From: Candidatus Gastranaerophilales bacterium
GTDB lineage: Bacteria; Cyanobacteriota; Vampirovibrionia; Gastranaerophilales; Gastranaerophilaceae
Direction of reading: 5' to 3'
Assembly (NCBI GenBank): GCA_944324135.1
Contig: CALUVE010000008.1
Span: 1-64,000, forward strand
DNA: 64,000 nt
Part shown: piece by piece, positions 37,853 to 40,181 of the stretch
How positions within the stretch are numbered: position 1 is the first letter of the stretch
Layout: each line of letters begins with the position of its first letter
Made by a program: the position numbers and the translations under genes
The notes under the pieces: generated by a model
What the model was told of the DNA's origin: nothing
What the model saw: the letters and a program-made list of their open reading frames with translations, nothing else
The model's database searches: none

Positions 37853-38761
37853 ATGGCTAAAAAACAAACGGTAAAGATAAATTATCACGGCTTTTGGAAC
37901 GACTTTTTTACTGAGGACAATGTTTTATATAACGCATTGAAAAAGAATTTTGATGTAGAGATTTCTGAAGAGCCTGATTTTGTATTCTGCTCCTGGTTTG
38001 CAGATGCTCCGTGCAGATTTAAAGATTGTGTGAAGATATTCTATTCACATGAAAATCATTCTCTGAATATGTTTGCTCAGGGGTATAATTACGCAATAGG
38101 TTTGCGGCAGTTGTCTGCCATTGACAACACTGGGGCTCAAAGGTATCTGAGGCACTGTATCTGTCCGGAAATTTCTGTTGAACACAGAGCAAATCTCCCT
38201 GACAGTATGGCGAAAAGGAAATTTTGTAATTTTATCTACAGCAATCAATATAGAGGAAACAACGTAAGAAGCAGAATAGATTTTTGTCTAGCGCTTGAAA
38301 AATATAAACATGTTGATTGTCCGGGCAAGTGCCTGAATAATATGGAGGGACTTTCTTCCGGTGAGAAAATCAACTGGTCTGAAGAGAAAATTGAATTCTT
38401 AAAAAATTACAAATTTACAATAGCGTTTGAAAACAGCATTGCAGCCGGATATGCAACAGAAAAAATATGGCATCCGTTTATGGCGGATTCAGTACCTATT
38501 TATCTTGGCAGCTCGACTATTTCAGAGGATTTTAATTCAAAAGCTTTTATCAATGTTGCAGATTACAAAAATTTTGATGAAGTTATTGAACGGATAAAAG
38601 AGCTTGATAATAACGATGAACTTTATATGCAGATGCTCAGAGAGCCTGTTTACGCTAAAGAACCCGAGTATGACAAACGTCTGGAACAATTTTTGTATAA
38701 AATTGTTCAAAAAGGCAACACTCCTGCCGCAAGATTTGTAAAACCGTTTTACAACATATAA
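37853..38761 (+). CDS. GT10-family alpha-1,3/4-fucosyltransferase
   Basis: Transfers fucose from GDP-fucose to an acceptor sugar. The C-terminal half carries the family core: YKFTIAFENS, AAGYATEKIWHPFMADSVPIYLGS and FINVADYKNFDE. The N-terminal half (KVNYHGFW-type start, FVFCSW) is the acceptor domain. 302 aa, close to the short bacterial GT10 enzymes such as those of Helicobacter, and without their heptad repeats. ManC at 42488 could supply the GDP-mannose from which GDP-fucose is made. Lewis-type surface glycans are possible, but this cannot be read from the sequence. Confidence 0.85.
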   Translation: MAKKQTVKINYHGFWNDFFTEDNVLYNALKKNFDVEISEEPDFVFCSWFADAPCRFKDCVKIFYSHENHSLNMFAQGYNYAIGLRQLSAIDNTGAQRYLRHCICPEISVEHRANLPDSMAKRKFCNFIYSNQYRGNNVRSRIDFCLALEKYKHVDCPGKCLNNMEGLSSGEKINWSEEKIEFLKNYKFTIAFENSIAAGYATEKIWHPFMADSVPIYLGSSTISEDFNSKAFINVADYKNFDEVIERIKELDNNDELYMQMLREPVYAKEPEYDKRLEQFLYKIVQKGNTPAARFVKPFYNI

Positions 38762-38762
38762 T

Positions 38763-38836
38763 AAAAAAAAGCCGTCTTGAAAGAAGAACGGCTACCAGAC
38801 TTGGGGAGGAGGTATGAAAAACAAAATGTTTTTCAT
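38763..38836 (-). ncRNA. Candidate small RNA: hairpin, exposed CCUCC stretch, terminator
   Basis: Read on the minus strand from 38836: ATGAAAAAC-ATTTT-GTTTTTCAT (9-bp stem), then an unpaired ACCTCCTCCCCAAG, then AGCCGTTCTT..AAGACGGCT followed by eight Ts. That is a Rho-independent terminator pointing left, although the prs gene already has its own terminator at 38885-38913. I see no convincing promoter (the best -10, TATAGA at 38843-38838, would start inside the first stem), so it could also be processed from prs readthrough. No protein is encoded on this strand. Confidence 0.4.
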
Positions 38837-38884
38837 ATCTATATTCCACATGTCGGCAATGCAGAACAAAAACTTTTGTAATAA

Positions 38885-38913
38885 TAAAAAATCTCCTCTA
38901 AATAGAGGAGATT
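38885..38913 (-). terminator. Rho-independent terminator after prs
   Basis: AATCTCCTCT / AGAGGAGATT, perfect 10-bp stem with a 4-nt loop; on the minus strand it is followed by TTTTTATTATT. Confidence 0.82.
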
Positions 38914-38939
38914 AGTATGTTGTTATAATTATCTATATT

Positions 38940-39953
38940 TTAAAGAACGTTCATTTCTTTTTCAAATCCGAACAATGAGCTAACGGATTCATCATCGTGG
39001 ATTCTTGAGATAGCCTGTCCTAAAAGCGGAGCAACAGAAAGTTGTCTGATGTTCGGAGGCATTTTTTCCATATCAAGCGGAATAGTGTTTGTAACGATAC
39101 ATTCTTTGATAGGTGCATCAGCAAGTCTCTGGAGTGCCGGCCCTGAAAATACAGGGTGTGCCGCACAAACATAAACATCTTTTGCTCCCTCGCGTTTAAG
39201 GAGTTTGGCAGCCTCACAGATTGTGCCTGCCGTATCTATGATATCGTCAAACATAACGCAGACTTTGTCTTTTACTTCACCGATAACATGGGAGGCAATA
39301 GCTTCATTATGTTTATCTCTGCGTTTGTCGATGATAGCCAGAGAACAGCCGATTGCTTTTGCAAAATGTCTTGTTCTCTGAACGCCGCCTGTATCAGGGC
39401 TGACTGCAACCATATCATCAGGATTAATATCAAGATTTTTTATATAATTTACCAGAATAGGAGTTGCAAAAATGTGGTCAACAAGAATATTAAAGAAGCC
39501 TTGAATTTGTCCTGTATGCAAATCCATTGCCAGAACTCTTGTGGCGCCGGCTGTTGTCAGCAAATCTGCTACTAGTTTGGCTGTAATAGCTTCTCTGCCG
39601 GAGGTCTTTCTGTCTTGTCTTGCATAGCCGTAGTATGGAATAACTGCAGTGATAGTTTTTGCGCTTGCGCGTTTGAACGCATCAATTATAATAAGCAGTT
39701 CCATCAGATTTTCGTTAACAGGGTTGCAAAGCGGCTGGATAATGAAAACATCGTCCCCTCTGACGCTTTCTTGAACCTGAACGTAAATTTCTCCGTCTGC
39801 AAAATTCTTTATAACCATCGGACCGATTGATGTCCCGAGGTAATCGGCTATTTCCTGTGCCAGTTTTGAATTGGCGCGTCCCGCAAACAACTTAATGTCA
39901 TGTGTAGGGTTGATTGCCCTATCTAACTGCGGGAAAGTCATTTCTACAACCAT
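38940..39953 (-). CDS. prs: Ribose-phosphate pyrophosphokinase
   Basis: Makes PRPP from ribose-5-phosphate and ATP for nucleotide, histidine and tryptophan synthesis. Seen: KLFAGRANSKLAQEIA at the start, IPYYGYARQDRK, LHTGQIQGFF and the PRPP loop VMFDDIIDTAGTI. I chose ATG 39953 (337 aa) because AAAGGA stands 9 nt upstream; the longer reading from 39983 lacks a site. Slightly longer than the usual ~315 aa. It is monocistronic and followed by its own terminator. Confidence 0.94.
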   Translation of the reverse strand: MVVEMTFPQLDRAINPTHDIKLFAGRANSKLAQEIADYLGTSIGPMVIKNFADGEIYVQVQESVRGDDVFIIQPLCNPVNENLMELLIIIDAFKRASAKTITAVIPYYGYARQDRKTSGREAITAKLVADLLTTAGATRVLAMDLHTGQIQGFFNILVDHIFATPILVNYIKNLDINPDDMVAVSPDTGGVQRTRHFAKAIGCSLAIIDKRRDKHNEAIASHVIGEVKDKVCVMFDDIIDTAGTICEAAKLLKREGAKDVYVCAAHPVFSGPALQRLADAPIKECIVTNTIPLDMEKMPPNIRQLSVAPLLGQAISRIHDDESVSSLFGFEKEMNVL

Positions 39954-40181
39954 TCTGCTGAATCCTTTCTGTATCTTTTTCATGTTAATTATAGAACGTT
40001 GCGTATATTACATCAATATTTCTTTAAGTTATATTAATGTTTCTCAATATTTAGATAAAAAATAAACAAAAAAATTTTTGCTATTCATATGCTATGTAAG
40101 GACGATAAGACGTTAAGTTTTTGTATTGTGCTAAGAGGGGGTGTCATTCGGAGTAGAGGGAAGAATCTCCTATTAAAAAAA
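39954..40181. other. Non-coding stretch upstream of prs
   Basis: Very AT-rich near 40000-40080, which may hold the prs promoter. GTCATTCGGAGTAGAGGGAAGAATCT at 40143-40168 is a degraded member of the GATTCTTCGC repeat class. GACGATAAG..TTTTTGTATT at 40101-40125 reappears as GACGATAAGCTTTTGTATT near 40292-40310, so the hairpin element between them is flanked by similar sequence. I see no gene. Confidence 0.5.

Follow-up and report, generated by a model that had tools for sequence, protein, structure and literature searches.

On the minus strand of the window (the whole 64,000-nucleotide stretch analysed here, from a Candidatus Gastranaerophilales bacterium), positions 38842-38763 form what is, judged from the sequence, a free-standing small-RNA gene that was previously uncatalogued and whose family is absent from Rfam. 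This family is conserved across an entire order of bacteria common in animal guts, and our search of the literature found no paper on small RNAs of the Gastranaerophilales. We consider it probable that the RNA acts in trans as a stand-alone, FliA-dependent regulator, silencing selected mRNAs by anti-Shine-Dalgarno pairing; transcription, FliA dependence and silencing were all inferred from sequence, and start codons were assigned mechanically. With FliA as a specific regulator, a seed and candidate targets all supplied by the sequence, the RNA lends itself to direct tests with reporters.

Structure and conservation of the RNA gene

The gene (38763-38842, about 80 nt) has a 5' end predicted from its promoter and a 3' end given by a run of Ts. 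Read along the minus strand, it comprises an 11-bp hairpin (TATGAAAAACATTTTGTTTTTCATA, 38813-38837), an unpaired ACCUCCUCCCCAAGUCU, and an intrinsic terminator with eight Ts (38763-38793) identified by its fold and helix covariation. The unpaired stretch consists of ACCUCCUCCCC plus AAGUCU between the hairpin and the terminator stem, and is about 15-17 nt long when weak CCA/UGG pairs are disregarded; the near-invariant core (ACCTCCTCCCCAAGTCTGGTAGCCG, 38789-38813) takes in its anti-Shine-Dalgarno part and then the foot of the terminator. The initial annotation had described much of this arrangement: its unpaired pyrimidine-rich stretch and its terminator with eight Us, ending at 38763, were both recovered, and its 9-bp hairpin is present but has an 11-bp stem in the fold. 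It had also noted GGAGGAGGT directly at an ATG on the plus strand, which exists but is simply the reverse complement of the core beside the hairpin and starts no gene. The 80-nt RNA folds at -20.5 kcal/mol versus -9.2 +/- 2.45 kcal/mol for shuffled sequences (z = -4.6), with 0 of 200 shuffles reaching the native energy, and no Rfam family matched the locus in a scan of the window.

By DNA similarity to a 105-nt query, the element is present in 51 of 59 related genomes, a plain count to be read with the incompleteness of several searched genomes and the inflating effect of kinship in mind. The covariance search of relatives that had been suggested earlier was run with a family model, which scores the window RNA at E = 1.4e-24 and, across a 386-genome sample of the phylum, matches every listed member of the order, nearly all better than 1e-10. 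Public named genomes with the core are mostly bins called 'Candidatus Gastranaerophilales' or 'Melainabacteria', which assigns the window to this group as well. Column counts over 154 distinct copies identify the core as the most conserved part of the gene, its consensus CCUCCUCCCCAAGUCURGUAGCCG being near-invariant (11 invariant positions, most others above 90%), and CCUCCUCCCC is carried in the unpaired region by 140 of these copies. The initial annotation held that relatives keeping the terminator but not CCUCC would speak against such an RNA; the opposite was found. The 5' hairpin, by comparison, takes the form of 78 distinct stems among the 154 copies and still pairs (median z -3.55), while in 31 diverse sequences the terminator pairs covary more than in shuffled or slid controls by most measures. 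A constant unpaired core between variable yet paired stems is the pattern expected of a base-pairing small RNA.

A small protein gene starting at the hairpin ATG, which in the window would give MKNILFFIPPPQVW, has in its favour an in-frame TAG (or TGG TAG) that closes the core in the CCT CCT CCC frame, both in the window and in most variants. Only 24 of 154 copies, however, have an ATG upstream in this frame with the frame open, and the third codon positions of the core are invariant, so that we rejected a conserved peptide gene as barely credible.

The RNA gene is flanked by prs, encoding ribose-phosphate pyrophosphokinase (38940-39983, minus strand; assigned by Pfam), and by an oppositely read GT10 fucosyltransferase gene. 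Since the element follows prs and is read in the same direction, it could alternatively be a second terminator, or the 3' end of read-through transcripts from prs, instead of a separate RNA gene. Yet prs, which lies outside the RNA unit, already has a separate terminator (38890-38913, minus strand), as the initial annotation had said, and a conserved promoter stands between that terminator and the RNA, whose core conservation far exceeds what a terminator needs. Moreover, among the 114 copies with enough flank, just 26 lie near prs, in three arrangements; in 16 of these prs is upstream and shares the strand of the RNA, and in 10 it is read from the other strand. The remaining 88 lie elsewhere, so the RNA gene is not a prs leftover. 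These position counts refute a read-through product or 3' UTR, which we regard as extremely improbable, and the adjacency to prs that had first seemed meaningful is incidental.

Some genomes have two or more copies of the gene. Candidatus Melainabacteria bacterium GWF2_37_15 carries three in a 362-bp tandem array (L042:1989, 2351 and 2713; also L105). Paralogs whose core has changed to TCTCTTCCCC and whose 5' stem is weak (L045:1878, L046:1971, L047:2037, L060:2081) occur adjoining normal copies or in addition to them.

A single probable homolog was seen outside the order, in a class member of a different family (L237): it combines AACCTCCTCCCCAA with a terminator, is preceded by GCCGACAC, and lies in a genome that encodes FliA. 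Other covariance matches beyond the order, where examined, were terminators or chance; the weak matches examined in photosynthetic cyanobacteria were likewise terminator-only or chance, and IMG/VR viruses searched with the exact core pattern yielded none carrying the RNA. The RNA is also carried by two bins labelled Clostridia and Brachyspira (L101 and L131), of which L131 has in addition a prs very close to that of the window; with a Gastranaerophilales-type RNA (and, in L131, prs) inside them, these bins are probably mislabelled or mixed.

A sigma-28-type promoter

The initial annotation saw no good promoter, which is true for sigma-70 only. A sigma-28-type promoter, missed because it is not of the sigma-70 type, spans 38877-38850 on the minus strand, with a -35 element AAAAGTTT (38870-38877) and a -10 element GCCGACAT (38850-38857) separated by a spacer of 12, and is kept in relatives, where the two elements have the consensus TAAAGTTT and GCCGATAA. 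The combination TAAAGTTT-N11/12-GCCGATAA, which is the sigma-28 (FliA) consensus known from E. coli, lies upstream of most RNA copies. At least 13 of the 16 promoter positions were matched in 91 of 182 copies, not all of them independent, versus 40 of 3520 control windows; several copies match the FliA consensus weakly. Within the genome to which the window belongs, the pattern occurs 10 times versus once for a reversed control.

That genome encodes FliA itself (TIGR02479, 239 bits, G000:C3:84761-85423), a few kilobases from flagellar rod genes, and 53 of 59 relatives have a FliA that passes the cut-off of its family. A point against the proposed link is that class members without a detected RNA of this family encode FliA as well. 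On balance the sequence features suggest that FliA, the flagellar sigma factor, turns the RNA gene on, even in lineages that lack flagellin. Two contig ends share one sigma-28-type promoter sequence (L185 and L187; G000:C2:115933 and G000:C13:45906), from which placement a repeated gene behind it is probably missing from the assembly.

Relation to known small RNAs

Gut Melainabacteria are non-photosynthetic relatives, and the sister group, of the photosynthetic cyanobacteria. That relationship, together with a shared layout of hairpin, open CUCCUC-bearing stretch and terminator, is what would recommend the RNA as a true Yfr1 descended from a common ancestor of the two groups. Yfr1, an RNA of about 60-80 nt with variable stems, consists of two stem-loops and, between them, an unpaired region in which a CUCC-bearing motif is ultraconserved and the undecamer ACUCCUCACAC perfectly so (PMC2190773). 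The window and its relatives likewise have two stem-loops, variable in their stems, with an unpaired stretch between them (16-20 nt in Yfr1) and a 3' terminator, but their motif is ACCUCCUCCCC, with ACCUCCUCCCCAAGUCU as the core both in the window and order-wide, and the Yfr1 undecamer is absent. The Yfr1 model (RF01116, Rfam gathering threshold 38 bits) found no match in the window's genome or in two other class members, nor in a permissive scan of 38700-38930, while four of five photosynthetic genomes used as positive controls scored 57-65 bits (G397, G297, G081, G060). Conversely, the photosynthetic genomes examined gave no full-length match to the Gastranaerophilales family. Yfr1 usually lies between guaB and trxA, whereas the Gastranaerophilales RNA occupies variable positions, with neither gene identified beside it in the window, where prs and the GT10 gene stand instead; it also differs in its sigma-28-type promoter. 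We therefore consider homology to Yfr1, already weakened by motif, Rfam model and neighbourhood, improbable: the Yfr1-like layout proposed by the initial annotation stands, without membership of the Yfr1 family. An RNA with the layout of Yfr1 thus exists in the sister lineage of the photosynthetic cyanobacteria as well, where it seems to have arisen independently.

Other known RNAs share different features. NfeR1/alpha-r14 of rhizobia carries an anti-Shine-Dalgarno motif, CCUCCUCCC, that is ultraconserved and unpaired while the stems diverge strongly, and pairing of this motif at the translation start has been shown experimentally to silence (PMC10746234). The Gastranaerophilales RNA also has CCUCCUCCC in an unpaired region, but one copy between two hairpins where NfeR1 has three copies in three hairpins, and NfeR1 is alphaproteobacterial and controlled by LsrB/NtrC. 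Sigma-28-dependent small RNAs are known from C. jejuni, namely CjNC1/CjNC4 (PMC4626219) and CJnc170 (FlmR; PMC11187230), and are directed at earlier flagellar genes. Compared by features and not by sequence, they share with the present family small intergenic genes, sigma-28 transcription (predicted here) and paralogs, but they are shorter (44-47 nt) and their hosts have a complete flagellum. The E. coli RNAs MotR, FliX, UhpU and FlgO are sigma-28-dependent and feed back on flagellar gene expression (PMC10578931), resembling the predicted sigma-28 dependence and proposed feedback here; they are UTR-derived, Hfq-bound and pair partly within coding sequences, in contrast to an intergenic gene with an anti-Shine-Dalgarno core. 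Two marks of the sigma-28-dependent class, a FliA-type promoter at the level of sequence and FliA in the same genome, are present. As far as sequence comparison goes, the family joins features of Yfr1, NfeR1 and the Campylobacter RNAs and is a member of none that could be tested.

Proposed mechanism, candidate targets and the export apparatus

In the mechanism we favour, RNA polymerase with sigma-28 (FliA) would transcribe the RNA gene, and the 5' hairpin and terminator would keep the C-rich anti-Shine-Dalgarno stretch ACCUCCUCCCCAAGUCU open to pair with G-rich ribosome-binding sites of selected mRNAs. Pairing there would block translation, and the FliA regulon would thereby include a post-transcriptional feedback step; the candidate target fliF2 belongs to a flagellar-type export apparatus kept even without flagellin. 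The conservation of AAGUCURGUAGCCG, however, exceeds what anti-Shine-Dalgarno pairing alone explains. This extension beyond what a short seed requires, and the want of an order-wide target, would suit a different mode of action, via a protein or as a decoy, with the core as a protein-binding or sponge site. CsrA-type sponging requires GGA motifs in loops, though, and the core is the complement of such motifs; AAGUCU could plausibly pair with AGAC, which a subclade has upstream of fliF2; and known small RNAs with this seed pair at translation start sites (PMC10746234). A protein-binding or decoy role is on balance unlikely.

Our target search, made up of pattern searches and selected stretches of genomes, revealed no strong order-wide target, and a strict search of the window's genome for TTGGGGAGG-N0-14-ATG matched only the opposite strand of the RNA gene itself. 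The best candidates, offered tentatively from sequence matches, are the flagellar-type MS-ring gene fliF2 and an unannotated gene for a 79-aa protein. AGAC-N0-5-GG, partly complementary to the core, lies upstream of the fliF2 start in 7 of 44 genomes versus 2 of 194 for other operon genes, all fliF2 cases falling in the flagellin-less part of the family; fliF2 of the window's genome has complementarity in a different form, GUGGGAGUGAG. Since the RNA of family f3 has CCCCGAGUCU, AGACUCGGGG is expected upstream of its fliF2, but this compensatory sequence was looked for in f3 and not seen. In 7 of 8 genomes the start of the 79-aa gene is preceded by GGGAGGA, and 55 of 59 relatives have an ortholog; most close relatives retain GGGAGG, which distant ones have lost, and the conservation of GGGAGGA may be the ordinary inheritance of a Shine-Dalgarno site. 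Both genes were found post hoc, and common ancestry may explain part of either signal. With -14.8 kcal/mol each in the window's genome, they rank about fifth among 153 sampled start regions, so neither stands out as the best partner. The 79-aa protein (MAIGAEDYIDQLLVKKY...; L322, G000:C12:49194-49430, minus strand) is order-wide and unannotated; its size and DP motif prompted comparison with a type III needle, which we do not claim, as the protein has no credible Pfam or NCBIfam match.

Flagellin (PF00669) was detected in 35 of 59 genomes and is absent from the window's own genus and many members of its family, while all but two of the 59 have an FHIPEP export protein. The FHIPEP class of flagellin-less genomes scores lower (about 730 bits, short of the cut-offs for the FlhA and the SctV model alike) and is encoded in an operon with FliE-, FliF- and FliH-like proteins. 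One such operon, fliE2-fliF2-(fliG-like)-fliH2-flhA2, was observed in the window's flagellin-less genome (G000:C5:34325-40540; L377:8326-14540), and its FHIPEP protein is found almost order-wide. The gut genome MEL.A1 is reported to have lost the filament, hook-filament junction and outer rings (PMC3787301). Since genomes lacking flagellin have both FliA and the RNA, the two persist where the filament is gone, raising the question of why such lineages keep them. One possible answer, which we advance with reserve, is that they were retained to control the flagellar-type export apparatus (here fliE2-fliF2-fliG2-fliH2-flhA2 together with flg rod genes), and that the RNA silences assembly genes, fliF2 for example; if true, a flagellar sigma factor/small RNA circuit would have been kept for a secretion machine.

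We also observed two large proteins beginning MG(M/L)AASQAR(L/F)L (L184, L381:7217-9220; L191, L382:7760-9403), which matched no Pfam or NCBIfam family where scanned. Both genes are preceded by a sigma-28-type promoter, and the proteins are possible export substrates of the FliA regulon.
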